Below, piece after piece: positions 4,050 to 41,922 of a stretch of DNA of 64,000 nucleotides. Origin of the DNA: Laburnicola sp. R22_1 (Eukaryota > Ascomycota > Dothideomycetes > Pleosporales > Didymosphaeriaceae); NCBI GenBank assembly GCA_014281115.1, contig JACONQ010000001.1:4712001-4776000 (forward strand), read 5' to 3'. Within the stretch, counting starts at the first letter, position 1. The number at the start of each line of letters is the position of its first letter. The position numbers and the translations under genes were made by a program. Under the pieces are notes generated by a model. It saw only the letters and a list, made by a program, of their open reading frames with translations, was not told the origin of the DNA and searched no databases.

Positions 4050-4076
4050 TAGCTGGCTATCTAGTACCCCATCCTC

Positions 4077-11179: not shown

Positions 11180-12497
11180 ATGGCCGCAGCCAGCCACCTC
11201 GCGACCACGACTGCCCAGGTGCGGTTGGTATGATAGCCTCCGACCAGAGTCATCAAGACGAGGGGATTCTCGGAGTCGATGCATTGCAGGTTCAAAAGCG
11301 CTATGGCGAAGAGTGTGCGAAGCGACTTCGGGACGACGGCAATGACCAATTCGTGGACATCTCTCTGAACGACAAATTCCAATCCTTGCTAAGGTGATCC
11401 CTGGGTTGATCCGAAGGATATCAAAGACCCTCTTACGGTGTTTCCAAATAATCGATGTCAATTTCTCATCCTCGGTGCTGGTTGGGGCGGCTTGTTATAC
11501 GCGGTGCGCATGGTCGAGGCATGCATTTGTCCCGAAGACATTCGTATCTTCGACAACGCGGGAAGTTTCGGGGGCACTTGGTACTGGAACAGATATCCAG
11601 GACTGTCGTGCGATATTGAGAGCTATAGCTACCTGCCATTGCTCGAGGAAACGGGATACGTGCCACACCACCACTCCAGTGGAGAAGAAATCCGCACCTA
11701 TGCCAATCACATCGCTAAAAACTAGGGGGTGGCCAACAGCGCCGTCTTCCAGACGAAAGCGACAAAATTGGTGTGGGATAAAGAATCAAAAGAGTGGCTC
11801 GTTAATCTGGTACAACAGCTCAAAGGGGAGGAACCGCAAACCATAAACATCCATGCACAGTTCGTCGCAGCAGCCAACGGCGTGCTCCACTAGCCAAAGT
11901 TGCCTGCTTTGCCTGGGATTCTCAACTATCAAGGCGATATCTTCCATTCTTCGCGCTGGAATTATGCGCTCACAGGCGGATCGCCTACAGACTCACCACT
12001 TACAAAGCTGCAAGAAAAACAGGTGGCTATCATAGGGACTGGGGTCACAGCTGCACAGATTGTCCCACATCTTGCTCACTGGGCGAAGCATCTGTATGTT
12101 ATTCAGCGCACTCCTTCTTCGGTGGATCGCCGGGTTTAGCAGGAGACAGAGCTAGAGTAGTTTCACAAAAATATGGCTACATCAGGAGGATGGCAGCGCG
12201 AGCGCATAAGAAATTTTCACCAGCACTTTACGACCAAAGAACCGCCTGCCATCAACATAGTAGATGACGAGTGGACGCGCGCTCTTGGCTTAGTTGGACT
12301 TACTGGTAATACTGCTGGCCCTAAGACGGTGGACGAGCTTCCGGCTTACATGGAAGAGCTCCATGCCATCGACCTGCCACGACAAGAGCGCATTCGTGCA
12401 CACGTGAATAGGGTAGTCAAAGATCCGACTGTCGCTAAGAAACTCCAGGCATGGTACCCTTCGTGGTGCAAGCGCCCTGTCTTCCATACCGTAATTA
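11180..12497 (+). pseudogene. Baeyer-Villiger monooxygenase, segment 1 (N-terminal two thirds), interrupted by transposons
   Basis: The likely start at 11180 gives MAAASHLATTTAQ, followed by a frame change before QVQKRYGEECAKRLRDDG and another at about 11395 before DPWVDPKDIKDPLT. From there one frame carries the flavin-binding Rossmann motif GAGWGG, GGTWYWNRYPGLSCD, the BVMO fingerprint [11 protein letters not shown] (consensus FxGxxxHxxxW), and the NADPH-binding GTGVTAAQ. Four in-frame stops occur, at 11723, 11891, 12137 and 12158, all TAG. Three follow from single C:G-to-T:A changes at expected Trp or Gln codons. The segment ends inside ...CKRPVFH... at the TA where transposon A begins. 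Intact enzymes of this type use FAD and NADPH to insert oxygen next to a ketone. This copy is dead; the rest of the gene lies at 16745-16762, 18888-19038 and 21138-21645. Confidence 0.88.
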
Positions 12498-12545
12498 CCG
12501 TGCCCGTGCGCGTAACGACCCACGTCGCGTAACGACCCAGGAACA
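12498..12545 (+). repeat. Left TIR of transposon A
   Basis: Begins CCGTGCCCGTG and matches the reverse complement of 14577-14624 at every base. It contains two copies of CGCGTAACGACCCA at offsets 12 and 29. Confidence 0.95.
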
Positions 12546-12649
12546 ACGCGCTCACTACTTCAAAAATGAGGGTATTGCAACAGCTATAATAGCTATTATT
12601 ACGAGATTTTGTAGTAGAGTAGTAAACAAAGGCATGCGATTAATTTGTA

Positions 12650-14527
12650 CTATCTAAATTTACTTGGAAGGTTAACGTTGCGGCCACGGCGGGTGGTGAA
12701 AGCTGGGGCAGCTAATGCAGCCTGTAATGCCTCCTTAGCAGCTGCACCAGCACTACGTTGTTTCTGACGCTTATTGGCTTAAGTAGAGGCTTTTAAGGCC
12801 TTGCGCTTGCCCTTTTAGGATAGTTGTATAGCTTTTTCAGCGTTGCGAGCTGCCTTCTAGCGCTCGCGTTCAGCTGCCTTGTCAGCCTTCTCCTTCTCCC
12901 TCACCACCTTAGCTGCCTCTCTCGCCACACGCCTCTCCTCTGCCTCCTGCTCTCGGAGTAGCTTAGCAGCAGCTTGAAGCTCCTTCCTGTTAGCCTTTGC
13001 AAGCTGCCCGTTATGCTCTTCCCTCTGCTTCACTGTCTCTCGTGCACGTGCCTCTCTGATCTTGCGCGGAGACCAGAAGACGGCACCACTGTAGTACTCC
13101 TGGCGCTGCTGCAAGTCAAGAGGTTTGCCGCGCTTCTTATGCTTCTTCTTAGCAGTGAGAGCCTCTCTTAGGCCATCGTTCTTATGGTGTAGCAGTTCGT
13201 TTTGTACTTGGAGTCCGTGGAGCGTTTGGGAGAGCGACTTTGACTCTTCTGCGGTAGTATCCTTCACTGCAGAGCGTACGAGACGCTCCATCTGACGCCA
13301 GTCGCTCTCCTTAAGCGCTGAGGGGCCTGCTTCGCCTTCATCTTGCTTCCTAGAGCTCTCTCTCTTGAAGCGTTTGAGTATAACCTCTGGGTCCATAGGC
13401 CATATACCAGTAGCTTCAAAGGACTTAAGGATAGTCTCTGTCTTAAATGAGGACTCCCACGCTCTCCAGAACAGTGGGAAAAAGTCCCCCTTCTTGACTG
13501 GTACTAGCCCTTGGCTCCTCTGGAGGTGGGTGGAGAGCTCCTTAGAGTAGGCGGTGGAGAGAGGTTTAAACATGACGACGTCGAGAGGTTGAAGCGTATA
13601 GGTAGAGTGAGGGGGAAATACAGCTAGGAGTATGCGATAGGATTCGCAGTAGTCGATAAACTCCTTCGTGAGGTGACTGCCATGGCCGTCAAGTATAAGG
13701 AGACGCCAGTCTCTCCCACAACGCGCTTTCTGCTTCGTGCAGCGATCAAATACCTGCTCTAGCCACGCTAAACCGATGTCGTTATTCGTCCATCCAGATG
13801 GAGATGAAGCTACAAAGACGTCGTGTTGCCCAGCTTTAATGGCGTCCACCCAAGCTGCCTACAGTAAGCTGTTTGCCAACTGATAGATAAGACCTGGCGG
13901 CAGAGCCTCCCCATCAGCGCAGACAGCTGCTAAGAGGGTGATCCATTCACGAGAGCCATCTTAGAGTGCCGCCTGCACCTCTTTTCGCTCCCACATCCGA
14001 CGGCTGAACACTCGTTTTGAGCGTCCTGTTATACCTATCATGAAGCCCTTCTCGTCCATATTGTAGGAATGGCGCGGCTGTATGTCGTACTGCTTTATCT
14101 TCTGATGTAGCAAGTCAAAGTATAGCTTATACTTAACGTTTGAATCAGCGTTGTGGCGGAGAGAGTCAATTCCAGATGTCCATTTGGAGATGAGATGGTG
14201 GCCGTGTCGGTCAAGAAAGCGGGTAACCCAAGCGTCGCTCACGGGCTCTGTGGCTGTCAAGGATGCGAAATTTTGTATCATCTCTCTTATAGGAGGCAGC
14301 CCTCTCTTTGTAAGGTCTTCAATATAGCTCACGAGCCCTAACTCTTGTTGTGGGCTGAGTACTTGTTGATCGCGATGCTTAGCTTCCCGTGGGCGCTGAC
14401 AGCCTTGGTGTCTTCGGCGCAGCGTACTGTGCGGTACACCAAACTGGCGAGCAATTTTCCGGTATATAAGTTGTTCTCCTGGTTTAAGCGATTCGATTGC
14501 TGCGAGCGCATCGTCAATTGGTGCCAT
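12650..14527 (-). pseudogene. Transposase of transposon A, inactivated by stop codons
   Basis: From ATG at 14527 the product starts MAPIDDALAAIESLKPG, a Psq-type helix-turn-helix. It is followed by the CENP-B/Tc5 type HTH (ERGLPP-like block IRE.MIQNFASL, then WVTRFLDRHG) and the DDE_1 core with YNMDEKGFMIGI and LILDGHGSHLTKEF, ending in a long charged coiled coil and a GRNV...PSKFR tail with a TAG at 12650-12652. Stops interrupt it near 13960 (CTC TAA GAT, expected CAA) and 13860 (expected CAG), and several more lie after 12857. All these are explained by C-to-T changes. The catalytic aspartates are still readable, so decay is mainly by stops. Confidence 0.9.
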
Positions 14528-14576
14528 GGTGGTGGAGTTATGACGCGTTGAAGTTTGGAGCTTGTCTGGTGTTTTG

Positions 14577-14624
14577 GTGTTCCTGGGTCGTTACGCGACG
14601 TGGGTCGTTACGCGCACGGGCACG
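14577..14624 (-). repeat. Right TIR of transposon A
   Basis: Perfect inverted copy of 12498-12545, followed at once by the TA shared with transposon B. Confidence 0.95.
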
Positions 14625-14626
14625 GT

Positions 14627-14663
14627 AGTCATCTGGCGCTCGGGCTCATCTGACGCCCACTTT
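14627..14663 (+). repeat. Left TIR of transposon B
   Basis: Starts GTCATCTGGCGCTCGGG and is the exact reverse complement of 16708-16744. Confidence 0.95.
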
Positions 14664-14708
14664 TCCATCGCCCACACCAAAATTTCAAAAATCTCTACAA
14701 CCACCAAT

Positions 14709-16592
14709 ATGGACCCGATTGACGCAGCTCTTGAAGCGTTAAAGTCGCTCGATATAGGCGAAAAGCCTAATTATTCTCAAATTGCGAAAAAGTACGGCGT
14801 TGATCGCAACAAGCTATCGAGGCGGTTTCGCGGGGTGCAGGGCAGCCGTGCAGCCCAATACAAAAATCAGCAACTTCTCAACAACGCGCAAGAATTAGAG
14901 CTTTTAAAATATATTGATAAGCTCTGCGGCCGTGGCCTACTTCCTACGAAGCAGATAATACGAAATTTCGCGCAAGAAATATCAGGAAAACAGCCTGGAA
15001 GAAGCTGGGTTGATCGATATATCGCACGGCATAACATCGAGCTCATATCGCGATGGACTACCGGTATTGACGCCCAGCGCCACAAAGCCGATTCCGCATA
15101 CAAATACAGCTTATATTTCAAGCTTCTAGAATCTAAAATTGAGCAGTACGACGTCGAGCCGGCAAATATATACAATATGGACAAGAAGGGCTTCTTAATC
15201 GGGGTGCTGAGCAAAATGAAGCGTATATTCTCCCGCAGGCGATATGAAGAAGCAGGGATCAAGCAAATGCTTCAAGACGGCAATAGGGAGTGGATTACGA
15301 CGATTGCTTGTATTTGCGCCAACAGCAGTACTCTTACGCCTTCCTTGATATACCAAGCGCTCTCCGGCAATATACAGGACAGCTAGTTACAAGATCTCAA
15401 TCCTACAGAGCACAAGTGCTTCATAACCTCATCACCTTCAGGATGGACGAATAATACAGTAGGCATAGCATGGCTGCAGCAAGTATTCAATCAGGAGACT
15501 AAGAGCAAGGCAGGGCGCTCAAGAAGGCTTCTAATACTTAATAGGCATAGTTCACATGTTACAAAGGCCTTTATCGAGTACTATAATCGAAATAGGATCC
15601 TCCTTGCTATATACCCACCTCATTCGACGCATACGCTGCAGCCGCTCAATGTCTGCCTCTTCAAGCCTCTCTCCGCCGCATATACTCAAGAGCTCACTCA
15701 ATTCATGTATAACTGCCAAGGGCTCAGCTCTATCACCAAGCGCGACTTCTTCCGGCTTTTCTATAGTGCCTGGCATACAGCGTTTCAAGAAAATACAGTA
15801 CTCAAAGCTTTTAAAGCTACTGGGCTATCACCATTTGATCCAGAGGTGATCCTCAAGAGATTCAAGCATAAGGAGATGGAGAGGCCCTCATCGAGCGAGA
15901 GTAGTACGTCAATACTCTCTGCAAGCGATTGGCGGAAGATTGAGCGCTTACTGAGGCAGACGGTGGAGGATATCTACGATAAACGCTCTCAGCAGCTTAG
16001 CCATACGATCCACGCCCTCGCTGTACGCGAACAACTACTAGAGCATGAAAATAAGTGCCTACGAGACGCTCTATACAACGAGAAGAAGCGCCGGCAGCGT
16101 GGCAAGCCTCTACCCTTGATAGCGCCACCAGAATATCATGGTGGTGCCGTATTCTGGTCCCCATCCAAAGTTCAAGACGCTCGCGATAGGCAGGCTCAAA
16201 AGGAAGCTGAAGAACAACAACTACAACACCAAAAGGACCAGGAAAAGCTCGCTAAGGAACAAGCAAAGGCAGACAAAGCTGCTATAATAGAGGAGAGAAA
16301 GCGTATGAAGCTTGTGGCTAAGGAGCTTAAGTTACAAGAGCAGCGCTTGAAGGCTGCAGCGCGTGAGGAAGAGCAGATCGCGAAGGCAGCTGAAAAACAA
16401 CTTAGGGCCGATATACAATTGTCTAAAAAGGGTAAGGCGCGTAGCCTTAAGGCTCCTGCACATCCTGCTCGTGTTATTAAGGAGCCAGAGGTTGATGTTG
16501 AGGATCCATCGGTCATTGAAGGGGTGGTGGAGGCATCCGGCCCATCAACGCGCACTCGCAAGGTACGCCTCCCACAGAGGTATCGCACGTAA
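14709..16592 (+). pseudogene. Transposase of transposon B, RIP-like damage
   Basis: The start MDPIDAALEALKSLDIG (Psq HTH), GRGLLPTKQIIRNFAQE and WVDRYIARHN (CENP-B-type HTH) lead to the DDE_1 domain. A TAG at about 15385 replaces the Trp codon seen at the same place in transposon D (GACAGC TAG versus GACACC TGG). After it the second catalytic motif reads ILNRHSSH where D has LLDGHGSH, so the catalytic Asp has become Asn. The third reads LQPLNV instead of LQPLDV. All are G-to-A type changes. The C-terminal coiled coil and final LPQRYRT are intact up to TAA at 16590. Confidence 0.9.
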
Positions 16593-16707
16593 TTTATCGT
16601 TGCCAATCAATCAAACAAACCTTCAAGAATGCTCCTCTAAAAAATCTCGTGATAATTAGATTTATATAGGACTATACAACTTCAAAAGTAGTGGTGGTTG
16701 ACATGTC

Positions 16708-16744
16708 AAAAGTGGGCGTCAGATGAGCCCGAGCGCCAGATGAC
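16708..16744 (-). repeat. Right TIR of transposon B
   Basis: Exact inverted copy of 14627-14663. Confidence 0.95.
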
Positions 16745-16762
16745 TAATTACAGTAATAAGTA
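16745..16762 (+). pseudogene. BVMO micro-segment between transposons B and C
   Basis: Eighteen bases, TA-N14-TA, separate transposon B from C. When A+B and C are removed with one TA each, these bases read in frame with the BVMO on both sides (FHT VINYSNK YLQTFN), so they are host coding sequence and not transposon. Confidence 0.75.
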
Positions 16763-16807
16763 CCGTAGCTTGGCAGTCAGTGCACAGCGTCAGTCAATGC
16801 ACACCCC
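16763..16807 (+). repeat. Left TIR of transposon C
   Basis: Starts CCGTAGCTTGGCAGTCAG and matches the reverse complement of 18843-18887 exactly. Confidence 0.95.
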
Positions 16808-17085
16808 CAACACGATCGCTCGGCCAGCAACATGAGGCTACTGAGCCACCCACAATCAATATTATCACGAGATTTTCTGGAGTTGAGGTCTCCTAGGCCT
16901 GTAGATGATTGCTAGCTACTCAGATTATAGATATCTACTTGGTGTTCTGATGATTCGGCCACTGCGCGATGAGGGCGTTGGTAGAGCAGATGCAGCTTCA
17001 TCAACGCGTACAGGTGCCGACGCAGGCTTTTTTTTCTTGATAGGTAGAACAGTAGACTCTGAAGCCTTTTTGTTACCCTTTTTGG

Positions 17086-18798
17086 CTAATTTGATGCGAT
17101 TTTGAAGTTGTTGATTGGCCCTACGAGCCTGTTGATTGAGGCGTCGCTCAGCAGCCTTACCGGCCCTCTGCTTTGCGCGCGCATCTCTAGCAGCTGCTCG
17201 AGCAACACGCTTCTCCTGGAGTAGTCTTGCTTTGAGCTGCTGGCTAGCTCGACGGGCCTCTGCTTGCTCACTTTTTGAAGCTGTAGTTGCTGCGCTTCAG
17301 CATCTTTTTCGTGTTGACGATCACGTGCCCGCTGTACGCTATGAGGTGACCAGAAAATAGCTCCACCATAATACTCATCTGGCCGATCAAGAGGTAGAGG
17401 CCTGCCTCGCTTTGAGCGTTTCTTCTGCCTTGCTAGAGCCTCCCGCAGGCCTTTGTTTTCATGCTCTAGGAGTTGCTTTTGTACAGAGATTGAGTGTACA
17501 GTTCGACTCAGCTTCTTGGCCTTATTACTACCCCCTGCATCAACAACAGCCTTCAGAAGCCTATCAATCTTTCTCCAATCTGAAGCACTGAGTACTGAGG
17601 TTGAGCTCTCTCGTGATTGTTGATCGGGAGGCACAGCCTGATCAAATCGCTTGAGGATAGTCGTCGGATCCAGCGGGGAGATGCCTGTAGCTTCAAAGGC
17701 CCGGAGTATTAATGGCTGCCTCATAGTGTTGACCCAGGCCTTCCAGAATAGGCTGAAGAAGTCTCTCTTAGCAATAGAGGCTAGCCCCTGGCTGTTCTGT
17801 AGGAAGGCTGACAGCTCATTTGAATACGCAGTTGATAGAGGCTTGAACACGCAGACATCTAGAGGCTGCAACGTATGGGTCGAATGGGGTGGATAGATGG
17901 CCAACAGGATCCTATTACGATCACAATAGTCAATAAAATCCATAGTGGTATGAGATCCATGGCCATCAAGGATCAATAGTCGATATGATCGTCCAGCTTT
18001 TGACTTTGTGAGGCGATTAAACACCTGTTGAAGCCATGCTAGGCCTATCTGATTATTCGTCCAGCCAGATTCTGATGCCGTGATAAAGGCCTGATGGTGT
18101 TGAGGATTGAGGTCCTCTATCCAACTTGATTGTATATCCGTAGAGGTGGCCTGATAGATCAGAGCTGGATCTAGGGCAGATCCGTCGGCGCATATACAGG
18201 CTATGAGCGATATCCACTCGCGGCTGCCATCCTGGATAGCTTGCCTTACAGCCTTGCTCTCGTACAGAGGCCTATCAAAGATGCTCTTTGAGCGGGAGGT
18301 GATGCCGAGTAGGAAGCCTTTCTCGTCCATATTGTAGATATCTCGAGCCTCGATCTAATATTGCTCAATCTTTTGCTGTAGGAGGTCAAAGTAGAGCTTA
18401 TATTTGGCCGAGGAATCAGCTTTGTGGCGATTACTGTCGATGCCGGCCGTCCATCGTGATATTAAGGATTCAGCGTTGCGCCTGACGAAGCGATCAACCC
18501 ATGATAAGCTAACCTCCTTTTTGGCTATAGTAGAGGCAAAGCTTTGTATCATGAGCCGTGTAGGAGGAAGGCCACGTTTAGTAAGGCGTTTGATATAGCG
18601 TAGAAGCTCCTGTTCTTGTTTTTCGCTGAGATTTCGACGCGCAGAGTTGGTAGTTGCACGCGCCTGTGTGAGGCGTTGATGCCTTCGCATCAACGTAGTC
18701 CGCACAACACCATAGTCCTTCGCAATTTGATTGTATGAAAAATATTCTCCTGGTTCTCGCGATTCGATTGCTGCAATTGCGGCCTCGATTGGATCCAT
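17086..18798 (-). pseudogene. Transposase of transposon C, broken
   Basis: By alignment with its relatives the start is the ATG at 18798 (MDPIEAAIAAIESREPG), not an earlier in-frame ATG. The two HTH domains end in WVDRFVRRN, and a TAG near 18353 interrupts just before the DDE_1 core. The core itself (18330 leftward) is whole, with NMDEKGFLLGI, LILDGHGSHTTMDF and LQPLDVCVFKPL giving the three catalytic aspartates. A frame change near 17290 scrambles the C-terminal coiled coil. The true coding end probably lay near 16930. Confidence 0.88.
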
Positions 18799-18842
18799 AT
18801 TGGTGGATATGCGGCGTGTCAAAGTTGGGCTATCGCATTAGT

Positions 18843-18887
18843 GGGGTGTGCATTGACTGACGCTGTGCACTGACTGCCAAGCTACGG
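18843..18887 (-). repeat. Right TIR of transposon C
   Basis: Exact inverted copy of 16763-16807. Confidence 0.95.
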
Positions 18888-19038
18888 TACCTACAGACAT
18901 TTAATCGCGAAAACGTAACTCTTGTTAATACAGAGGGAAAAGGCCTTAATCGCCTTAGCGTCGGCTCCATCATCTCAGGCGAGGAATCTTACGCCATTAA
19001 TGTCGTAATCTTTGCCACTGGCTTTCGTGCACCCTTTA
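18888..19038 (+). pseudogene. Baeyer-Villiger monooxygenase, segment 2
   Basis: Stranded between transposons C and D, this 151-base piece reads YLQTFNRENVTLVNTEGKG and then SYAINVVIFATGFRAPF in one frame. The (I/V)FATGF block is the conserved second dinucleotide-fold signature of flavin monooxygenases and follows directly on segment 1 in intact family members. There is no stop in this piece. Its ends are the TA sites of C and D. Confidence 0.88.
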
Positions 19039-19083
19039 CCGTGTTTCATCACCTGACGATCGGCCCCACCGGACGATCGATTT
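19039..19083 (+). repeat. Left TIR of transposon D
   Basis: Starts CCGTGTTTCATCACC; 43 of 45 bases match the reverse complement of 21093-21137. Confidence 0.93.
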
Positions 19084-19136
19084 TCCGCCTCAACAGCCCA
19101 ACTTCGGCACCTTTTGCAACGCTCTATACAACGAAT

Positions 19137-20977
19137 ATGGCCGAATTAAGTGCTGCTCTTGACTATTTGAGCTCGCTGAGCATCTCTGAGAAGCCTAATT
19201 ACACCAAAGTCGCTCAAAAATATGGCTGCGATCGCAATACGTTGTCGCGCCGGCATCGCAGGGTGCAGGGCACGCGCGACGCGCTGGCCGACAGCCAGCG
19301 CCTCCTCAACACCCAACAGGAAACTGAGCTTCTACAATATATTAATGGCCTTTGCGAACGAGGATTACCCCTACAAAGGAGATGATACGAAATTTCGCAT
19401 CAGAAATAGCTGGGAAGCCTGCTGGCAAAAACTGGGTTGACCGATTTATACGACGCCACAAAGTCGACCTACTTTCCCACTGGACCTCTGGTATAGACGC
19501 CTCACGTAAACGCGCCGACTCTGCCTTCAAGTACGCCCTATATTTCGAGCTCCTACGTAAAAAGATTGAGCAGTATAACGTCGACAAGCGCCACATGTAC
19601 AATATGGATGAGAAGGGTTTCCTAATTGGGGTGCTGTCAAAAATGAAGCGTGTCTTCTCCCGACAGCGCTATGAGAGCGGCGGCATTAAACAAATGCTCC
19701 AGGACGGCAATCGCGAGTGGATTACAACGCTAGCATGTATTTGCGCTGATGGAAGCTCTCTTACGCCTTGCTTGATTTATCAAGCGCAGTCAAACAATAT
19801 ACAAGACACCTGGTTACAAGATTTTGACGATTCCTTACACAAAGCTTTCTTTGCGGTATCACCAAGTGGATGGACGAACAACGATTTAGGCCTAGCATGG
19901 GTCAAACAGGTGTTTGACAGGGAGACTAAGGCAAAGGCGCGCCGCGATTATCGTCTACTACTCCTTGACGGCCATGGATCGCATGTTACAATGGAGTTTA
20001 TTGACTACTGCGATCAAAATAAGATCCTCCTGGCTATCTATCCACCTCATTCAACCCATACGCTCCAGCCGCTCGACGTCGCGCTATTCAAGCCTCTCAG
20101 CACTGCCTACTCCGCTGAACTTACTGAGTACTTAGATAAGTGCCAGGGCCTCTCAAGAGTCACAAAGCGCGACTTCTTCGCTATGTTTGAGAGGGCCTGG
20201 CAGTGCTCCTTTCAAGAAAACACGATCTGCAGCGCCTTTAAGGCCACTGGCGTAGTGCCTTTCAACCCCCAAGTAATCCTTCAGCGCTTTAATAATATAG
20301 ACCTAGAGCGGCCATCCTCAAGCGACAGCAGCTCTTCTGTACTTAGCGCTTCAGATTGGCGTAAAATTGAGAGACTCTTGCGCCAGGTTGTCTCTGATAC
20401 TTACGCTGAGGGGTCCCGGCAGCTCTCCCGCACTATGCACTCAATTTCAGTGCGCAACACCCTCCTGAACCATGAAAATACGCGTTTACGAGAAGCGCTA
20501 GCCCAGAAGAAGCGCCCTACGCAAGGAAAGCCTCTACTGCTTGAACCACCTGCAGATTACGCTGGCGGCGCAATATTTTGGTCCCCCGCAAAGGTCAAGG
20601 AAGCTCGCCAACGCCAGGCACAAAAAGATCAGGAGGCAAAGGCTAAGGAGCAAGAGAAGGAGCAGAGGAAGGCTATCCAGGAGGAGCAGAGGCGTACAAA
20701 GGCTATACAAGAGGAGGAGCGCGCCCAGGGCCCTGGCGTCAACCCAGGCGCTTCGGGCACCAAAAGCAAGGCCCCCAAAGGCATCCAAGAAGCTCCTCTC
20801 CCACTCCAAAACACCTCCAAGGTGACGCGCAAGGGCAAGGAGAAGGTTATTACGCCTCCTTTAATTGATGAGGAGGATGTAGAGTACAACTTTTCATCTG
20901 TTGTAGATGTGGCGCCTACGCCAGCGCGTACACGCCGGGGTCGCTCTTTACGGCTCCCTGAGCGTTATCGCACCTAA
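19137..20977 (+). pseudogene. Transposase of transposon D, one single-base frameshift
   Basis: The ATG at 19137 opens MAELSAALDYLSSLSISEK (Psq HTH). In CGAGGATTACCCCTACAAAGG (19358 on) one base is missing relative to the expected RGLPPTKEMIRNF, so the frame ends at 19385 and the rest is read from an overlapping frame that is open for 541 codons. That part has WVDRFIRRH, the DDE_1 aspartates in YNMDEKGF, LLLLDGHGSH and LQPLDVALFKPL (35 residues between the last two, a DD35D arrangement), a Glu/Lys/Gln-rich coiled coil and a final RGRSLRLPERYRT. Apart from the one indel nothing essential seems lost. Ribosomal frameshifting is conceivable but the site is not a classical slippery heptamer. Confidence 0.88.
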
Positions 20978-21092
20978 TAAAGTATCGCGATCGTCTCCTA
21001 TGCCTCTCAAAAGCTCTCCACCAAAAAATCTGGCCTGTATACAATTTGTATTGCGTTGTACAGCTTCAAAAGTTGTACGCACGGACCCTGCC

Positions 21093-21137
21093 AAATCGAT
21101 CGTCAGGTGGGGCCGATCGTCGGGTGATGAAACACGG
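21093..21137 (-). repeat. Right TIR of transposon D
   Basis: Inverted copy of 19039-19083 with two mismatches. Confidence 0.93.
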
Positions 21138-21645
21138 TACCAGGTCGCCAGCCGACAAGACCAACGTAGGTATTGTCGGCCGCAACAGCGTCTCTATGAG
21201 CGAAGAGCGATCGCGCAACGGGCCTTTGACGCAGCATAGTGTGCTAAACCGGAACTTTCCCAATCTCTTCCTTTCAGGGCCGTGGCAGGCCTCAAACAGC
21301 CCGAACTACTTGTTCAACTTGGATGCTCTCGCGAAGGAGTCAGCCTACATCCTAGCAGAAGCGAAACGCAAAGCCGACGGAAACCCTTTTGCCGTGACGG
21401 TAACCCCCAAAGCAGCCGAGAATTGGGGCATGCAAGTGCTGATGCATTCGGTCCCAGGGGCTGCCATAGCCGGTTGTACGCCAAGTTATTTCAATGTTGA
21501 AGGAGAAATCGACCGCGCACCACCAGAGAGGCAAATGATGATGGCGCGCTCGGGTGTTTGGGGCCATGGCATTGAAGACTTTGTTCGGATCATAGAGGCA
21601 TGGCGTGAAGAGGGTAGTATGCAAGGCATTGAAGCGCAGACATAG
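21138..21645 (+). pseudogene. Baeyer-Villiger monooxygenase, segment 3 (C-terminus)
   Basis: After transposon D the BVMO frame resumes as TRSPADKTNVGIVGRNSVSM and runs without a stop through NFPNLFLSGPWQASNSPNY, a conserved block near the end of these enzymes, and on to TAG at 21643-21645. Joining 19038 to 21140 with a single TA keeps the frame exactly. This confirms that the three large segments are one former gene of roughly 600 codons. Confidence 0.88.
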
Positions 21646-21761
21646 ATTTGATGTACCGTAGAGGGCACTTCGCGATTGGGGCAATCTTCTTCTTGATACA
21701 TGCTTAGTAGGCAAGATACACCGCGTACGGGATACTTTGCACCATAGGATGACGTCTCTCA

Positions 21762-23810
21762 TCACAACCACATCATTTTCGCTTTCGTGGGCGCATTGGG
21801 CGCCCTTGCGACCACAAGCACCATCAAAGGTCGCGGCTTCAGCGGTCTTGAATCCCAACCCAAAACCTCCGGTCTTTGATGCTTGTGCGTGTCAATGTCT
21901 TGGATGTCAATTTTCCATGCTTCCCCATTACGCACTTCGCGATCCGCCATTCTCGTCCCGTCTAACCATACCTCTATCGCTACTGTTTCCGTTATATCTT
22001 TACATTTGACAGTTCCTTGCACTTGTGCGGCCTTTGCCTCACCAGCATTTGTAGCCATAGATGTCGTGAGTTCCGCCTCTCTAAATTCACGATTTAACGT
22101 AACACTCGTCCTCGTCACTGTATCGGTCGCCAAGGTCGGTGTCAACGGTGGTGGGACACGTGCCTTGCTTTTCTGCTCATAAGCATACGCATACTTCAAC
22201 AAAGTGGCATCCTCGTAGGCTTTCCCCGCAAATGTCAGATTGACAGGCATATTCTTCTCCTTCATGGTCCCCATCGGCACGCTCACAGTCGGTACACCCA
22301 GATGCCGGATCGCTCGGTTGCCATTAGAGTACTTGACTCCGTTCTGCAAACTACATTGCGCGCTTTCGCGATCGAATTCCAGATCCGCGAGCCCGACGTC
22401 GCCCTGAGAGGGAAACGCCATGCAGTCCAACCTCAGATCGTCCATCCAGTCCTCAAGGTCGCGCTTTCGTTGTGCTTTGAGCGCGGGCAGGACCTGCTCT
22501 AAGCCCGGAAATTCGTGAATTGAAATATCCTTGAGTTGCGCTTCGAGAGCTGGAAGTCCGGCGTAGTCAATCCAGTTACGCACCTCGAGCCACGTATTTG
22601 GTAAGTAGCCCTTGGGTTTCGGAACAGTGAAAATGGGTCGAGGTCTACGAGGCTCTTCTTTTCTGGGTCATTATTCTGGAACAGAAAGGTTGACCAGGCT
22701 TTTGCTATGAGCGTACTGCGTTCCACGAGGTTCCAGTCTGATGGTGCGCCTAAGACATTGTTCGCTTCGCCAGATGTAGAGTCATTCTCGTAGTTGGTCA
22801 CTAGAGGGAAGTCTGTGTATGCGACCTCCGTACCAAGGGATTCAAGGACGGATGCCGCGTTTTTCCAAAGCTCAACAACTTCGGGGCTGACCACTGGGGG
22901 TTTGGCGTGCGGGTCTGAATCCTCTCCACCGACATACATTTTGGGCACACCGATTCGTTTGCCACGTAAAGAATCGGGCTGCGCCAGTCCGTAATAGTCA
23001 GGCTTTTCTCGTACATGCGACTTCACATGCGTTTGCTCCCTCCAAAAATCCCCTTTGGTCTGTTGATCCGGCGTGCCAATCACGTGCAGGATTGTAAGCA
23101 TATCTTCTACTGACCTCGCAAGCGGAACGGAGACATCGCATGTCACATAGAGCGGCCACAGCCAGCGGCACGAAAGTACGCCTTTGCTGGGCGTATAGGC
23201 TACTAGTGCATTATTGCTCGCTGGCGACCGTCCCGAGGAAACAGTCTCCGAACCCATGCCGAACACTGCCATACTAGCCGCCGTCGACGTCGCCGCACCG
23301 CTTGAAGATCCTGATGAAAAGGCTGCTGGTAGGTACTTTCTGTTGTAGGGACTCTCTGGGCGGCCGTACATGCCGCGTTGCATGCCCCCAGCAGCCATGG
23401 GAGGCATGTTGGTCTTGCCAATCAGGACGGCACCGGCATCTCTCAACTGCTTCGCGATTGCGGAATCCTCACTCGAGCGGAGTCCTTCCAGTGCAGGCGA
23501 GCCATTAGTTACAGTGAGTCCTTCGACTTTGTAGCTATCTTTGATTGTATATGGGATGCCCTCTAGAGGTCTTAGGAATAGCCCTGCTGCGCGTCGTGCA
23601 TCTGATGCGGCCGCGTCTTCGAAGACATTGGAAAATGGTGAAACCATTGAAGCCACCACAAATATCGTAGGTAGCTATCCGAAGAAGATAACTAATCACT
23701 ATGTCGACGCTTGTCACTTGACCGGCTTCAAGGGCTTCCTTGTGTTGGGCGATGCTTACTTCGATGATGTTGAACTCGGTGTTGGAAGACTGAGCGAACA
23801 GTTAGCACAG
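21762..23810 (-). pseudogene. Amidase-signature hydrolase, frameshifted; follows the BVMO tail-to-tail
   Basis: On the minus strand the N-terminal part FNIIEVSIAQHKEALEAGQ (from about 23795, just after a possible intron end GCTAAC...CTCAG) shifts frame near 23670 into PLEGIPYTIKDSYKVEGLT, which holds the catalytic lysine. The same frame has VLIGKTNMPPMAAGG, FSSGSSSGAAT and GSETVSSGRSPAS, matching the Ser-cisSer-Lys amidase signature. A one-base loss near 22640 then separates it from PKPKGYLPNTWLEVRNWID and GVPTVSVPMGTM, read up to 21762. Enzymes of this family hydrolyse amides or carbamates. Two frame breaks make it a pseudogene, unless they are assembly errors; no stop lies inside the main blocks. 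Its end is only about 120 bp from the BVMO end. Confidence 0.78.
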
Positions 23811-24804
23811 AACTGGTGCTGGACAAGGATAGTGTTCACCATGATGTTTCACCAGCTGTTCAGCATCCAGAAAGGCGTATTATACGTTTTACTAGAACAC
23901 GAAGTTATGTTGCACTGTGGCTTATCGTGATACTTCACACTAAAAATCACACCTCAACGTTTAAAGTTCCGTCCAAGACTACAATGCAACACGACAGAGT
24001 ACGTCTTGTCAACATTATTTCTCGATACAGTTTCCGTCAACAGCCACTTCCGATGGCGAATTTGACTCATGTGTCTATTTGCGATCAAATTTTTGTGCCA
24101 ACAAAAGTTAGCACATAGTTAGCCCCTTGCGGTTGTTAATTTTTGTGTAAGAGGCTGTGCGTAGCACAGCCCACCTAGCTTAACAATAATCTATACTTAA
24201 TAATAGTATATTAATATACAGCTACCACGGAAATCATTAATAATTCAAAAGCGGCAATGTGGCGAGGCATCCCACGGCCACTCATGTACGGCGCTGTTCC
24301 ACCCTCAGACGTCAATCCGAAACCCAAAACGCCCCTGACACCTCCACCTCCAGCCCGACTCGTCCATCACGCGACCAGTTCCACATATTACGCGCCCTCT
24401 CACCGCATCGCGTACAGTGCTTTCGAAACCGCGCGCATGAACATGGCGCCTTTCCAGCAGCGGCTGAACAGCAAAAGAGAGCATCGCATGACGCGCACCT
24501 ACCAGAGGGGGGTTGCAGACCAAGCTCGCGTGCTCTCACGCCTGCGCCGCTTTAACCGGTTTCATCATGACAGCGCGCAACATATATTTAAAAGAACGAC
24601 CATACAAAAATACTAGAAAGAAAAGCAAGAGACAAGAAAAAAGAGAGTGAACTACCGTTCTGTCAATTACGCCCGCGAGGCGCCTACGAGTCAGCAAGAG
24701 TCGCAAAGAGAACCAGGACCAAAACGCGACACCTGAAACGAAACACACAAGAGCTAGACCTACTTCTTTCCAGGACCAGTACGAATATTTGAACGCAAAA
24801 AAAA
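23811..24804. other. No supported gene; AT-rich patch
   Basis: Bases 24170-24250 are strongly AT-rich. A plus-strand frame from 24257 to 24616 codes for 119 Pro/Arg-rich residues with no family I know; I leave it unannotated. A/G-rich sequence at 24590-24640 and the C-poor leader before 24805 look like the promoter side of the SDR gene. Confidence 0.4.
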
Positions 24805-25518
24805 ATGCCCACCTACTTCCTCACAGGCGCCAATCGAGACATCGGCCTCGAATTCGTGCGCCAACTCTCCACCTTCCCCAACAACACCATCATCGCCGCC
24901 GTGCGCTCCAAAAAATCCGACCTCTCCGACCTAAAAGCCCTCGCCAGAACCAACAACAACGTCCACATCATCGAATGCGACGTCTCCTCGACCGACTCCA
25001 TCGCAAGTCTCGAATTCCGCGTCGCATACATACTCTCCAAAACGGGCGAAAACTTGAACTACCTCTTCAACATAGCCGGTATCAACGCGAGCTCGTCGGA
25101 TACGTCGCTATCGATAGACGCGGCATCGCTACAGCGCCACATGGATGTGAATGTGTTGGGGCCGGCGAAGATCGTGGAGACGCTGCGGCAGTATTTAGCG
25201 AGGGGAGCGGTGGTGATGAATTTGACTAGTGCGATGGCGACTATGGCTGTTGCGAGGGATGGGCCAAAGTGCTGCACGTATTCTATCAGTAAAGCGGCGC
25301 AGAACATGCTGAGTCTGCATCAGGCGAGGGATCTGAGGCGGAATCATGCTATTGTGATAGGCATGGATCCTGGGTGGGTGAAGACGATGATGGGTGGGAA
25401 GGGCGCCATGGTCGAGCCTGAGGTCAGCATTGCGGGTATGCTGGATGTGGTTTCTAGTCTGGGGAAAGAGGATAGTGGGAAGTTTTTTCGGTTTGATGGG
25501 GGCAGGATTCCGTGGTAG
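24805..25518 (+). CDS. Short-chain dehydrogenase/reductase (SDR, C-factor-like)
   Basis: This intronless gene encodes 237 residues. A Rossmann start FLTGANRDIG occupies residues 5-14. The acidic ECDVSS at 57-62 binds the cofactor's adenine end, and FNIAG at 88-92 stands where most SDRs have NNAG. The catalytic set is Ser142 (NLTSAMA), Tyr159 and Lys163 (YSISKAA). PGWVKT follows the active site as usual. In the glycine motif TGxxxGIG the middle glycine is Asp (NRDIG), a mild variant. The size fits the small single-domain SDRs related to bacterial C-factor. It probably reduces or oxidises a carbonyl/alcohol with NADP(H), but the substrate is unknown. The frame is intact, in contrast to its left neighbours. 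Confidence 0.82.
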   Translation: MPTYFLTGANRDIGLEFVRQLSTFPNNTIIAAVRSKKSDLSDLKALARTNNNVHIIECDVSSTDSIASLEFRVAYILSKTGENLNYLFNIAGINASSSDTSLSIDAASLQRHMDVNVLGPAKIVETLRQYLARGAVVMNLTSAMATMAVARDGPKCCTYSISKAAQNMLSLHQARDLRRNHAIVIGMDPGWVKTMMGGKGAMVEPEVSIAGMLDVVSSLGKEDSGKFFRFDGGRIPW

Positions 25519-26134
25519 TAATTCTTCATCGGTTTTTGAATGCCCGTTTCGTCCGGCTTGGATAGGAGTGACAGCTTGCTCACAGTTGTTAGCCCCCGGA
25601 ACATCACATGCAAATCAACCCAAAGCTCAAGGCAGAAGGCATTGAAGCAAATTGACGAGGCAGTACTCGGCCCCTCGCGGTCTTTCGATTTTTCTCCAGT
25701 CTTTTTCGGAGAACAACTAACTGAGTACTGTATCAGCTACAAGGGGCCAAGTACGAGTTCCTAAAATACAAAGCTTAGAGCCTACCACCTGGGTAGGTAC
25801 CGCTTAAGAGTAACCCTAGCTAGTGCTAACTATATCTTTTAAGGCTGTGATTAGCAGATCAGCGCTTCTAGCTACAAAGGGTACAGCCTTAAACATGAGG
25901 CACACAACACAGCAAACGTACGCCACACACACCCAGAACATCCCATCTCAGATCGACCAGCCGTCTTTCCCCGCAATGCGCCACAGTAACGTTGAGATTG
26001 TAATCTGTAAAAAGTTAGGTCGACTATAAACAGATATGAATTAATGAATTAATAAATGATGCTATAAGTAGAGTCTCGTGTCAAAACGTCGTCCAAGCAC
26101 GCGAAATGACGTGACGCGTACCTCGGCTCCGCTA
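25519..26134. other. Intergenic up to transposon E
   Basis: No gene seen. A short AT-rich piece lies near 26030-26070. The left TA of transposon E is at 26133-26134. Confidence 0.4.
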
Positions 26135-26179
26135 CCGAGGCTCACCGTCCGACCAGCCCCACCACCCAACAGAGCCACC
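26135..26179 (+). repeat. Left TIR of transposon E
   Basis: Starts CCGAGGCTCACCGTCCG; exact reverse complement of 28161-28205. Confidence 0.94.
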
Positions 26180-26224
26180 CACCACGACAACACCTTAACT
26201 TCAACACGCGATAACTCCACCAGT

Positions 26225-28052
26225 ATGAGCCCAATCTAGCTATAGACAGATGGCGAGAGAGTATGGTTGTAACCGTGCAGCGCTCGCACAAAGACATAAG
26301 GGCGTCTCAACCTCACGCGCTACCCAGGCTCAAAACCAGCAAGCTCTCCACCCACAACAGGAGCAGGAGCTCCTACTCTATATTAAACAGCTCACTAGCC
26401 GAGGCCTCCCACCTACACAAGCTATGATTGGAAATTTCGCCTCACAAATCGCGAGGAGAGAGCTTGGAGTAAACTGGGTTAATCGCTTTGTCCACCGGTA
26501 TCCTGACAAGCTCATCTCAAAATGGACGACGGGCATTGACAACAGTCGCCACAAGGCTGATTCAGGGAGGAAGTACAGCCTCTACTTCGACCTCCTACGC
26601 GAGAAGATTGAGCAGTATCACGTTGAGCCTCGTCACACATACAATATGGATGAGAAGGGCTTTATGCTTGGTGTTATAGGTCGCTCAAAGAGGATCTTTA
26701 GCAGAGCCTCGTACGAGGAGGGGAAGAGGAGGAGTACTATCCAGGATGGCTCGCGAGAGTGGATAACGCTGCTAGCCTGTATCTGCGCTGATGGATCTTA
26801 CCTTGAGCTCGCTCTCATCTATCAGTCAGCCTCAGGATCGATACAGGACTCCTGGCTACAGGCCCTCGATCATGCGACTCATCAGGTTCGAATCTCCTCA
26901 TCGCCCTCTAGCTGGACGAACAACGATATCGGCCTCGCGTGGCTTAAACAGGTGTTTGATCGCGGTACAAAGGCGAAGGCTCGATCTTCCTATCAATTGC
27001 TTATCCTAGATGGCCATGGATCTTACCTCACAATGGATTTTATTAAGTACTGCAATTAGAACAAGATCCTCCTCGCTGTATATCCTCCTTATTCAACCCA
27101 TACGCTGCAGCCGCTCGATGTAGCTATGTTTAAGCCTCTGTCCACAGCCTACTTAAAGGAGATCTCAGCCTTTATAGAAAGGAGCCAGGGCCTTTGCTCA
27201 ATAAGCAAGAGGGATTTCTTCCCCCTCTTCTACCGAGCCTGGCAGGCCTCCTTTAAGGAAACGTCAATCCTAAAGGCCTTCGAGGCTACAGGCCTCTCAC
27301 CCTTCCATCCTAAGGTTATACTACAGAGATTCAACACTAGCCCAAGCTCCTTAAGCGATAGCGAGTCCTCAGCCTTGAGTGCCTCAAACTGGAGGAAGAC
27401 TGAAGGCCTACTGCGTCAGGTAGTCAAGGATCGAGGTGATAAACGAGCTCAAAAGCTAAGCCAGGCCTTCCACCAAATCTCAACTCAAAAGACCCTCCTT
27501 GAGTATAAGGTCAAGGGCCTACGCAAGGCTCTAATCAACAAGAGAACGCGTAGGAAGCGAGGCAAGCCTCTCCTACTTAAGGAGCCTAAGGAGTATTAAG
27601 GTGGAGCTATATTTTGGTCTCCAAGGAAGGTGAAGGAGGCACGTGATCGCCGGCAGCTCTAGGAGCGCGAGGAGGAGCAGGTACAACACTAAAAAGCTGA
27701 GACAAATAGGCTTTGTAAAGAGACAAGACAGGCAAAGGCGAAGGAGAAGGAAATAAGGCGTTAGGCGAGGGCTGTAGCCAATCTGGTAAAGGAGAAGGAG
27801 AAGGCGGAGAAGGCTGCTGAACAGGCCTCTAGGGCAGCTGCTCGCAGGACTGCAAAACGACTCTAACAAGCTCTCAAAACGTCTCAAAAGGGTAAGAAGC
27901 GCAACCTTAAGGCTCCTATAAAAGCTACTCCTAGAAAGAGATCTATCGCGAGACCTGCAGCTGGTGGGGAGGCTTATAAGGCTGTTATAGCTCAACCAGC
28001 TTCTACCTCGCGCAAAGGGCGCGCGATTAAAACTCCAACACGATTTCTATAG
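26225..28052 (+). pseudogene. Transposase of transposon E, deleted near start and with stops
   Basis: The expected ATG at 26225 is followed after four codons by TAG and by a shortened Psq domain, so an internal deletion of some 30 bases is likely. From REYGCNRAAL the frame is open through LTSRGLPPTQAMIGNF, WVNRFVHRY and YNMDEKGFMLGV to LILDGHGSYLTMDF. A TAG at 27057 (expected Gln) breaks it. It resumes with LQPLDVAMFKPL (27100 on), and further stops occur from 27597. The last catalytic aspartate survives. The former end is the TAG at 28050. Confidence 0.88.
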
Positions 28053-28160
28053 CTATATATATTAATCAATACCTATAGATATTACCACTAAAAAATATCG
28101 CGATAATAACTATTATGTGAGGCTCTACAGCCTCAAGTTGCAGAGCTGTTTTGGTGTTCA

Positions 28161-28205
28161 GGTGGCTCTGTTGGGTGGTGGGGCTGGTCGGACGGTGAGC
28201 CTCGG
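28161..28205 (-). repeat. Right TIR of transposon E
   Basis: Exact inverted copy of 26135-26179; the TA that follows is also the left TA of transposon F. Confidence 0.94.
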
Positions 28206-28207
28206 TA

Positions 28208-28255
28208 CTGTGTCCGTGCACTCAACGCCCGGATTCAGTCAACGCCCCGCTGAAC
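28208..28255 (+). repeat. Left TIR of transposon F
   Basis: Starts CTGTGTCCGTGCACTC; 47 of 48 bases match the reverse complement of 30273-30320. Confidence 0.94.
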
Positions 28256-28296
28256 GCAAACCACCCCAAATTTCAACACGCCATAACGCCACCAAT

Positions 28297-30168
28297 ATGA
28301 GCTCAATTGAGGCTGCAATTAAAGAAATAGAATCGCTAAGGTCAGAAGAATCTTTCTCTTATACTAAGATCGCTAGCAAGCATGGCGTTGATCGAAGTAC
28401 GCTGTCGCGAAGGCACCAAGCGATTCAAACGACGCGTGCAACTGCGGGGTTTAACCAACGGAAACTCAGTCCCCAACAAGAGCAGGAGCTTGTACAATAC
28501 ATTGAAGGGCTTACAGCGCGTCACTTGCCACCCACAAGAGAGATGATACGAAATTTCGCGTCAACAATAGCCAAGGAGCCAGTGAGCGAGAGCTGGGTTA
28601 CTCGCTTCATCAACCGACACAACATCCATCTGATCTCTCAATAGGCAGCTGGTATGGACAGCAATCGCCACCAAGCCGACTCAGGGGATAAATACAGCCT
28701 GTATTTTGATCTCCTAGGTGCCAAAATCAAGGAATATAACATCGAGCCTCGTCACACGTATAATATGGATAAAAAAGGCTTCTTAATTAGTATCACTAGC
28801 CAATCAAAACGAGTGTTCAGCAGACGAATGTGGGAGAATAAGGAGGTTATAGCATCTCTCCAAGATGGCTCTCATAAATAGATTACCCTCCTAGCGTGTG
28901 TTTTCGCTAATAGATTAGCCTTGCCGCCAAGCCTCATCTATTAGGCTACTAACAAGGCTATACAATCAAGCTGGGTAGAGGATATTAAGGCAGGAGAGCA
29001 CTCAGTACACATTTCCTCGTCGCCTTCAGGCTAGACAAATAACAATATCGGCCTTGCCTGGCTTAAACAGGTATTTAATCGCTACACCAAGGCAAAAGCT
29101 TAACAGTCTTACTAGTTACTCATCCTTAATAGCTATAGATCTCACGTTACTATGGATTTTATCAACTATTGCAACCGTAACAGGATACTCCTAGCCATCT
29201 TCCCCCCTTATTCAACCCACACGCTTCAGCCACTTAATGTGGTTCTATTTAAGCCTCTATCAACTGCGTACTTAAAGGAGCTATCAGATCACCTCCACCA
29301 GAGCCAGGGACTCCTCCCTATTAAGAAAGGGGACTTCTTCCCTCTATTCTGGGAGGCCTGGACGAGCTCTTTTAAGGAGGAGACGATACTTAAGTCTTTT
29401 AAAGCAACAGGCATATCACTATTCAACCCAGAGGTTATACTTAAAAGGTTCACTAACACTACCCTAGATAAGCAGGAATCGCAAGAGAGCTCTACGTTAG
29501 TACTTAGCAGATCTAACTGGCGTAAACTAGACCGCCTTGTACGATCCGCAGTAGAAGATCAGAGTAGTAAGGACGCGCAGAAGCTTAGCCGCTCACTCCA
29601 CCACATCTCAGTTCAAAATGAGTTACTTCACCATAAGATTGCTAGGTTAAGAGAGGCTCTTACTACGAAAAAGAAGCACAAGAAGAAGGGAAAACCTCTA
29701 GATCTGCAACAACGTTAAGAGTACTATAGGGGGGCGGTTTTCTAGTCACTAAGGAAGGTTAGGGAGGCTCGCGTACGTCAGTCTGTAAAGGAACAAGAGG
29801 AGAAGGAGCAGAAGCTTTAAAAAGCTGAGAAGGCTAAGTTAAAGAAGGCAGCTAAGCTATGCAAGGAGAAAATTGCAGAGGAGAAGCGTGTAGCGAGGGA
29901 GGCAGCCAAGGTAGCTAAGGAGAAGGAGAAGGCTAAGAAGGCAGCAGAGCGTGCTCGCTAGAGAGAAGCTCGCAACGATGCAAAAGCTCTACAATCTACC
30001 TAAAAGGGTAAGAGGAAGGCCTCGCAGCCATCTATATAGAGCAATAAGCGTCAGAAACGCGTAGTTAATACTATAACTACTCAGGAGGCTTCAGGTGCTG
30101 TATTAGCAGCTCCACCCAAGACCACGCGGCACGGCCGCAACGTTAAGCTTCTAAGTAAATATGAGTAG
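28297..30168 (+). pseudogene. Transposase of transposon F, many C-to-T type stops
   Basis: It starts MSSIEAAIKEIESLRSEE with both HTH regions readable (LTARHLPPTREMIRNF, WVTRFINRHN). The first stop (28642, TAG) replaces the Trp of the usual KWT/RWT. Many more follow, nearly all TAG. They include TAA for Gln in LQQR(Q)EYY at 29716 and TAG for Trp in AVFW at 29743. Catalytic regions show D-to-N replacements (YNMDKKGF is kept, but LQPLNV and ILNSYRSH appear). This is the most decayed transposase in the window. The former stop is at 30166-30168. Confidence 0.9.
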
Positions 30169-30272
30169 CACAGGTGAATCGCAAGCATCAAAATAGTACT
30201 CTACTACAAAATCTCGTAATAATAGCGATTTTGTGTGGCTCTGCAGCCTTATTTTAGTTAAGCTGCTATGGT

Positions 30273-30320
30273 GTTTAGCGGGGCGTTGACTGAATCCGGG
30301 CGTTGAGTGCACGGACACAG
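30273..30320 (-). repeat. Right TIR of transposon F
   Basis: Inverted copy of 28208-28255 with one mismatch. Confidence 0.94.
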
Positions 30321-30416
30321 TACCTGACAACCATCCCGTCCCATCCCATCCCATATCCTCCCCATCCACAAACTTCAAACCCACCCTCCCAACATACCCC
30401 CCAAGCCCCAAACCCA

Positions 30417-39658: not shown

Positions 39659-40445
39659 GTCGACGAACTTGGTAGCGGAAATGTCACGCTGATGTCAGTG
39701 AGGGTTGAGCTGCAGGACACGGGAACGTTATCAACAAGCAGTGGAAGGCCGGAAGACGACTAAACAGACAGACGTTGGCCGCAGAGTAGAAAGAGAGGGG
39801 CTAGGGAAGATAAGAAGAAGTTGCAAATGCTCCGTGATGTGATCGGGCCGCATCCTTAATAGGTCCTTGGCTTGGTGGTGGGATGTAATAATCCGATGTA
39901 TAGTGCGTCACCGCCAACTTTGGTGCGGCAACAGGGCTTCGTCATGGGCCGTCGTCCTTGAGACGCCTAACCGGATTGTGCGCGATGACTAGCCGACTTT
40001 GCTATGAAACCTCGCCATGTCTTCAGGCACAGTGGCACTGACAACGGCCTCTGCTACCGTTGGGCAGCATAGGCGTCCCATCTTGTCGCGGGTGCTCGCG
40101 CTGGCAACTCTGGCGCTGGGAACATCCCTTTCTCGATTCCAGCCTGGGCGAAACAGACGAGGTTGCGAAGTGTGTCTCTGCGTTGACGTCAGTGGCCGCG
40201 CTTGCCGTGCGGGATGCTACACCAGGGCCCCGGCCTCGATCATGTCACGTGCGCAGACCTTGGGCCGGCCCCGCGCCTCATTTTGCAACACCAACATCGA
40301 ATGACTGTCCGCCTCATTACTCTCGTGAGTGCATGTTCAGCGGCGGAATTTGGAGGCCACGAATATGCGCCTTTCTATTTCCCTCCGAACTAACAGAGAG
40401 CACTGAGCATCAGTTGCGGTACTGAGTGTATTCCAGGGCGATGTA
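39659..40445. other. Intergenic up to transposon G
   Basis: An open plus-strand stretch at 40060-40425 reads rather protein-like (VSALTSVAALAVRDATP) but I cannot name it. It may be the left part of a host gene interrupted by element G. The left TA of G is 40444-40445. Confidence 0.35.
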
Positions 40446-41885: not shown

Positions 41886-41922
41886 AGATGTCTCTCGTAC
41901 GAAGAATTTGGTGGCGTTTTTA

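Follow-up and report, generated by a model that had tools for sequence, protein, structure and literature searches.

The closest described relatives of the transposons that we analyze here are fungal elements whose terminal inverted repeats (TIRs) hold short tandem repeats. The TIRs of Trem from Paracoccidioides, with those of Aft1 and Tan1, are 42-49 bp long and are said to comprise two 17-bp direct repeats, and the Trem elements are mostly flanked by TA and encode helix-turn-helix (HTH; psq), CENPB and DDE domains, the first two of which have been suggested to bind the repeat (PMC2836289, Marini et al. 2010). Domains of the HTH_psq type take their name from the Drosophila Pipsqueak protein (cited in PMC2836289). 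In Verticillium dahliae, DAHLIAE1 carries direct repeats of 15-17 bp and DAHLIAE2 three 17-bp repeats at its 5' end and two at its 3' end, and these repeats have been termed transposase binding sites (PMC3441728). Here we consider six Fot-type elements, A to F, in a window of 64,000 nucleotides from the ascomycete Laburnicola sp. R22_1 (contig JACONQ010000001.1, positions 4,712,001 to 4,776,000), together with related loci of the same genome. A preliminary description of this window had noted a word repeated directly at a spacing of 17 bp in the TIRs and had taken the rule to be undescribed, a claim that fails in the light of the published 17-bp repeats just cited (PMC2836289, PMC3441728). The 17-bp tandem site is thus already known for such elements; the new part is a covariation between residues of the transposase and bases of the repeat, for which one search directed at it in the open-licence literature returned no report. 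Judged from sequence comparison, each end of these Fot-type elements very probably holds two head-to-tail predicted sites for the element's own transposase, with the word in those sites matched by residues on the side of the first HTH.

The 17-bp spacing is exact in both TIRs of elements A, B, C, D and F, as the preliminary description had stated for five of the six elements. We refer to each copy as a unit, and the units in the left TIRs, with their counterparts on the right, are as follows.

12509..12525, plus strand: element A, left unit 1, CGCGTAACGACCCACGT, mirrored in the right TIR at 14598-14614
12526..12542, plus strand: element A, left unit 2, CGCGTAACGACCCAGGA, mirrored at 14581-14597
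14629..14645, plus strand: element B, left unit 1, TCATCTGGCGCTCGGGC, mirrored at 16727-16743
14646..14662, plus strand: element B, left unit 2, TCATCTGACGCCCACTT, mirrored at 16710-16726
16774..16790, plus strand: element C, left unit 1, CAGTCAGTGCACAGCGT, mirrored at 18860-18876
16791..16807, plus strand: element C, left unit 2, CAGTCAATGCACACCCC, mirrored at 18843-18859
19050..19066, plus strand: element D, left unit 1, CACCTGACGATCGGCCC; right unit 1, at 21110-21126, differs by 1 base
19067..19083, plus strand: element D, left unit 2, CACCGGACGATCGATTT; right unit 2, at 21093-21109, differs by 1 base
28219..28235, plus strand: element F, left unit 1, CACTCAACGCCCGGATT, mirrored at 30293-30309
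28236..28252, plus strand: element F, left unit 2, CAGTCAACGCCCCGCTG; right unit 2, at 30276-30292, differs in its last base

When the 55-base left end of each of these five elements was shuffled letter by letter, none of 2,000 shuffles reached the observed score at a start-to-start spacing (lag) of 17, and the corresponding p for any lag was 0 to 0.02. If the 28 lags from 8 to 35, the range within which the best lag was sought, are taken as equally likely, finding lag 17 in five of six elements has a p of 3e-7. The left end of element E gave no significant result in the same test (lag-17 p 0.13, best lag 20), and a second copy of E, at L028 4051-6172, has no lag-17 repeat either. The offsets given in the preliminary description need a small correction: in A, C, D and F, unit 1 begins 14 bases in, with the TA counted. 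Since B is without most of its leader, so that its unit 1 begins 4 rather than 14 bases from the end, the distance from unit to end is not fixed across families.

The six TIR pairs themselves were all confirmed where they had first been placed; the TIRs are 39-50 bp long, in keeping with the roughly 40-60 bp of Fot-type pogo transposons, with TA at either end, and the elements and their Pfam domains are as follows.

12496..14627, minus strand: element A, 2,132 bp from TA to TA, TIRs of 50 bp
13964-14527 and 12860-13849, minus strand: stretches of element A within which lie HTH_psq with HTH_Tnp_Tc5, and DDE_1, respectively
14626..16746, plus strand: element B, 2,121 bp, TIRs of 39 bp, leader shortened
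14709-15383, plus strand: stretch of element B within which HTH_Tnp_Tc5 lies
16761..18889, minus strand: element C, 2,129 bp, TIRs of 47 bp, HTH_Tnp_Tc5 and DDE_1
19037..21139, plus strand: element D, 2,103 bp, TIRs of 47 bp, HTH_Tnp_Tc5 and DDE_1 within 19352-20974
26133..28207, plus strand: element E, 2,075 bp, TIRs of 47 bp, HTH_Tnp_Tc5 and DDE_1, without a significant lag-17 word
28206..30322, plus strand: element F, 2,117 bp, TIRs of 50 bp
28297-28641 and 29152-29715, plus strand: stretches of element F within which lie HTH_Tnp_Tc5 and DDE_1, respectively

HTH_Tnp_Tc5 scores above the cut-off in all six elements. HTH_psq is above the cut-off in A and below it in C, and is not reported for B or F; the scanned pieces of D and E begin after or inside the HTH_psq region. 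Outside the window it is above the cut-off in L014, L017 and L052 too. DDE_1 was matched in A, C, D, E and F, with no match in the two scanned pieces of B, although the B stretch 14937-16589 is 59% identical to the D transposase, and no match to HTH_ABP1_N was reported among the scanned window pieces. The six elements had been presented as unlike families whose TIRs do not match one another. The second part is only partly true, as A, C, D, E and F have the common start TAC(C/T)G, and the first is too strong: identity to the DNA-binding domain of A is 44-76% for 17 other domains of what we call the TACC clade. For pogo, a 12-bp site was reportedly described by Wang et al. in 1999. The window elements resemble Trem in their TA flanks, in their 17-bp repeats (E excepted) and in their domain set, of which HTH_psq is above its cut-off in A, and the comparison of words with residues is made only here, as far as the accessible part of that article shows (PMC2836289). 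Their repeats are likewise similar to those of the DAHLIAE elements, of which DAHLIAE3 is without repeats, and the portion of that article at hand describes no covariation (PMC3441728). Sclerotinia Tc1-Mariner elements resemble those of the window in their HTH_psq, HTH_Tnp_Tc5 and DDE motifs and have TIRs of 36-70 bp, but are reported to have none of these repeats, which argues against generality (PMC4188875).

The source genome comprises 63.9 Mb in 26 contigs and gave 2,759 DDE_1 candidates at first look, of which 150 were scored; about 300 kb was analyzed, at loci chosen from search hits and designated by L numbers. The TIR finder returned 77 pairs, of which seven were dropped, five as internal or chance pairs (L009 2155, L019 2176, L022 907, L024 5827, L028 6338) and two as inner versions (L026 3822, L030 218). 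Five pairs were added by hand (window elements B and E, L026 3795, L030 201 and L040 291), giving 75 elements in 32 clusters. A phmmer match of the A, C or D domain is present in 63 of them, a non-random sample in which only elements with two recognizable TIRs are counted and which includes L017 414 by virtue of a match belonging to its nested element. The 12 without a match are L024 584 and eleven CAGTC elements, whose two clusters are one family shifted by three bases and among which L001 duplicates L009 3369 and L003 duplicates L024 3841. L045, L051 and a damaged element in L023 (22-1863, its right end without a leader) stand outside the 63.

The preference for 17 bp extends across this sample. 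The best lag is 17 in 112 of the 126 ends, 16 in 4, 18 in 3 and another value in 7, and the lag-17 score is at least 8 in 104. Among 1,829 windows of 55 bases from the interiors of the same elements the best lag is 17 in 76, about 1 in 28, and not one has a score of at least 8 at that lag; among 126 subterminal windows the best lag is 17 in 3, and the five that score at least 8 do so at lags 9, 13, 15, 18 and 26. Counted by TIR family (clusters at 80%), 26 of 29 have lag 17 in at least one end, which is one end only in L014 403, L015 1818 and L047 287, and 23 have it as the modal lag; of the remainder one is at 16 (L026 5709), one at 18 (L017 2051, also found in L011) and E has none. The chance of 26 in 29 is about 8e-35 with 28 equally likely lags, a rough figure since either end may count. 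The 17-bp spacing is therefore real and strong, and the proposal that it stays fixed as the word changes is supported. The CAGTC elements have no 17-bp repeat, and L003, the one scanned, has HTH_ABP1_N in place of HTH_psq; L024 584-2711 also has no lag-17 repeat. Among the elements compared here the fixed spacing thus accompanies the psq-like architecture.

We compared the words with the DNA-binding domains across 22 hand-picked families, one for each word variant of the TACC clade, several of which share one 80% cluster, and in which E is represented by the L028 copy. Families whose two copies disagree were left out position by position (base 8 without L053; base 13 without L042, F and B). 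The strongest association links residue 44 of the domain to base 8 of the unit.

14396..14398, minus strand: residue 44 (Q) of the DNA-binding domain of A, counted from the domain start at 14527 on the minus strand; co-varies with unit base 8
14459..14461, minus strand: residue 23 (R) of the same domain; co-varies with unit base 13

Residue 44 is Q in 11 of the 22 families, and base 8 is C in both copies in all 11; it is T in 8 families, with T at base 8 in all 8; and C44 goes with T (L016). In a scan of variable columns over 21 families, residue 44 accounts for all of the base-8 information (z 13.4, against 4.0 for the next column). In every one of the 22 families, bases 8 and 13 are the same at both ends as in the unit set that was analyzed; L047 has three units. 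The expectation that words co-vary with the DNA-binding domain is thus supported across these families. Close relatives are alike in most of both word and domain, so base 8 and residue 44 might be linked by shared history only. We consider this very improbable: a null in which base traits were simulated on the catalytic-domain tree, and which allows for kinship, gives a family-wise p of 0.0008 over the variable columns among 122 (0.008 at a slower rate, 0.0007 at a faster one), and the base-8 switch recurs in separate lineages of that tree, between F and L038 (support 0.97), between D/B/L017 and L048 (support 0.99), and between L042/L037 and L044/L046 (inner order without support).

A protein search with the domain of A returned 395 proteins; among the 120 listed, the named organisms are all fungi (Ophiobolus, Pyrenophora, Bimuria, Alternaria). 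In 120 aligned domains, comprising A and its database relatives, 51 have Q and 44 have T at residue 44, which is thus nearly a two-state switch. No relatives of the D transposase were found in the viral_contigs or genome_contigs collections. Many copies in the genome hold several TAG/TAA stops beside stop-free copies and may reflect C-to-T repeat-induced mutation; such C-to-T decay was rejected as the source of the base-8 split, the Q and T codons being two changes apart.

Residue 23 is linked to base 13, more weakly than residue 44 to base 8. All 8 families with R at residue 23 have C at base 13, and all 3 with N have A; of the 7 with T, 5 have G in both copies and 2 have it in one copy, and the one family with Q has G. 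Base 13 is 93% explained by residue 23 (z 6.95, p 0.025 over columns). Of the 11 families with P at residue 46, 10 have G at bases 2 and 4 and the eleventh (L016) has it in one copy, but this association is phylogenetically confounded, close relatives being alike, and with a family-wise p above 0.3 is indistinguishable from shared descent.

Four families outside the 22 were also compared. L057 has T23 with G in both copies and I44 with T; the minus-strand 5' end in L023 has T23 with G in both and N44 with T; the 3' end in L045 has R23 with C in both and R44 with T; and unit 1 of L058/L051 has R23 with C and T44 with T. All four are consistent with the pairing at base 13 (L058 in its unit 1). 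As I, N and R had not previously been seen at residue 44, only L058 tests the base-8 rule as written (Q with C, T with T); L057 and L058 were obtained after that rule had been noted and L023 and L045 before it, and the base-13 rule was found after all the sequences. L059 proved to be the L035 family again. In the TAACG and TAAGC clades, where the code was read by eye and the word register is unclear, no clean rule was found.

Taken across these comparisons, it is fairly likely that Fot-type elements of fungi follow a code in which residue 44 would set base 8 as C (Gln) or T (Thr) and residue 23 would set base 13 as C (Arg), A (Asn) or G (Thr). The words of an element would then be partly predictable from its protein, and new families would arise by paired changes of protein and TIR, in both copies and at both ends.

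The anatomy of the units bears on their origin. In 21 TACC-clade families (B was omitted for its register) the two copies agree in 14-21 families at each of bases 1-13 and in 13 at base 14, and then in 9, 6 and 4 at bases 15, 16 and 17, where 6.2 would be expected by chance. This agreement and its decay indicate a word of about 13 bp followed by spacer bases, in which a pitch of 16 or 18 could be absorbed. In some TAACG families all 17 bases are identical between copies and the number of units varies. L017 414-4404, a TAACG element that hosts another inserted element at 2051-4190 with lag 18, has perfect 17-mers, two at one end and three at the other, and L018 4942-6760 has one and two units at its ends. 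One end is likewise a 17-bp unit short in L014 403, L022 3763, L026 3795 and L047 287; among these four and L018 the missing unit lies 5' of the transposase in three and 3' in two. Such perfect 17-mers in one, two or three copies, and the ends that are a unit short, are what would be expected if the repeats were functionless slippage products, a micro-minisatellite of period 17. That explanation is very improbable, because a common period in 26 of 29 families with differing words, with bases 1-13 kept and bases 15-17 diverged, requires selection on word and pitch; slippage probably explains the gain and loss of units, not the period.

A complete miniature inverted-repeat transposable element (MITE) of 182 bp, L051 62-243, has a leader at each end, with two units on one side and one on the other. 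Three MITE-like single ends, whose inner flanks are similar and whose words partly differ, occur near 150-192 in L046, near 2683 in L014 and near 2335 in L034, the last with a new word and no protein beside it. The MITE and these single ends fit a need for leader and units. L045 has a transposase with an open domain (1936-2301, minus strand) and a clear two-unit 3' end (249-306), for which no matching 5' TIR was found; it is perhaps a damaged or co-opted copy.

The sequences show the spacing, the agreement of the copies over bases 1-13, the covariation and the complete MITE with leader and units, whereas binding, its stoichiometry, direct contacts and a footprint of 17 bp are inferred. A profile of the 22 domains matches CENP-B (1hlv) across both HTHs, a weak match with an E-value of 0.002, and the CENP-B box is 17 bp long (PMC7475651). 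The two together suggest a footprint of 17 bp per domain and a head-to-tail packing of two domains at each end, with the difference that CENP-B is a domesticated protein and the window elements are transposons. From the CENP-B alignment and the helix limits of 1HLV, 38-48 (PMC4653904), the recognition helix of the first HTH is placed at residues 32-42, which is approximate because that part of the alignment contains an insertion; residue 23 then lies in the first HTH and residue 44 just behind its recognition helix. One site would consist of the word of about 13 bp and about 4 free bases. One transposase molecule would cover one 17-bp unit by its CENP-B-like bipartite domain and a second would sit directly behind the first, such that the pitch would equal the size of the bound domain. 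The word would evolve gradually, its steps matched by residues that lie within the first HTH or immediately after it: base 8 would answer to residue 44, base 13 probably to residue 23, and bases 2 and 4 perhaps to residue 46. Both copies at both ends would be kept to the word that the current transposase reads.

Since one word is present in both copies and the residues that track it lie at the first HTH, two molecules arranged head to tail are the best fit, in keeping with the dimer that the preliminary description had offered as one of two interpretations. Its other suggestion, that a single molecule spans both copies about 17 bp apart with the Psq HTH on one and the Tc5 (CENP-B-like) HTH on the other, draws on the two HTH regions of each protein and is the least probable of the alternatives, as bases 1-13 are the same word in both copies although the HTHs match different Pfam families, bases 8 and 13 of both copies follow residues 44 and 23, on the side of the first HTH, and CENP-B has two HTHs for one 17-bp box.

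Several observations weigh against two head-to-tail sites read by a common code. The spacing is not absolute: L026 5709-7584 has 16 at both its ends, L015 1818 and L029 each have it at one, and 18 occurs in L017 2051-4190 and its L011 copy. Element E has conserved TIRs without a clear repeat, and some ends hold a single unit. At residue 44, S pairs with T/C in L053 and with C in E, and unit 2 of L058/L051 (T44) is shifted in register by one position and has C at base 8, which makes it a partial miss; S23, in three families, goes with G, A and a mix. The pair of residue 44 and base 8 was first spotted by eye and written down, and the column scan came later. The pair of residue 23 and base 13 does not stand once the 13 scanned unit positions are allowed for (0.025 x 13 = 0.32), and in the same scan (unit bases 1-14) base 1 and residue 103 give p 0.032 resting on one family (L049), so that a single p of about 0.03 weighs little. 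A search with the domain of A alone did not find CENP-B, and all of the DNA comes from one genome.

Two further kinds of element were noted. L001-L008 belong to another DDE_1 lineage (L003 has HTH_ABP1_N and Tc5), with 25-bp TACAGTCAACTCTCGTTATAACGAT ends and TATAACGA-like words further inward, and have no 17-bp repeat. An inverted-repeat element of 1.5 kb, whose TIRs are 54 bp long (GTACGGAGGTGCC...), lies at 40443-41976 of the window; it has no listed open reading frame of 200 amino acids and no lag-17 repeat.

If the code is true, the way in which transposase and end families split without loss of activity would become testable, and it would be easier to predict the ends that belong to orphan DDE_1 proteins. 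The elements would likewise constitute a natural data set on recognition by HTH_psq-type domains.

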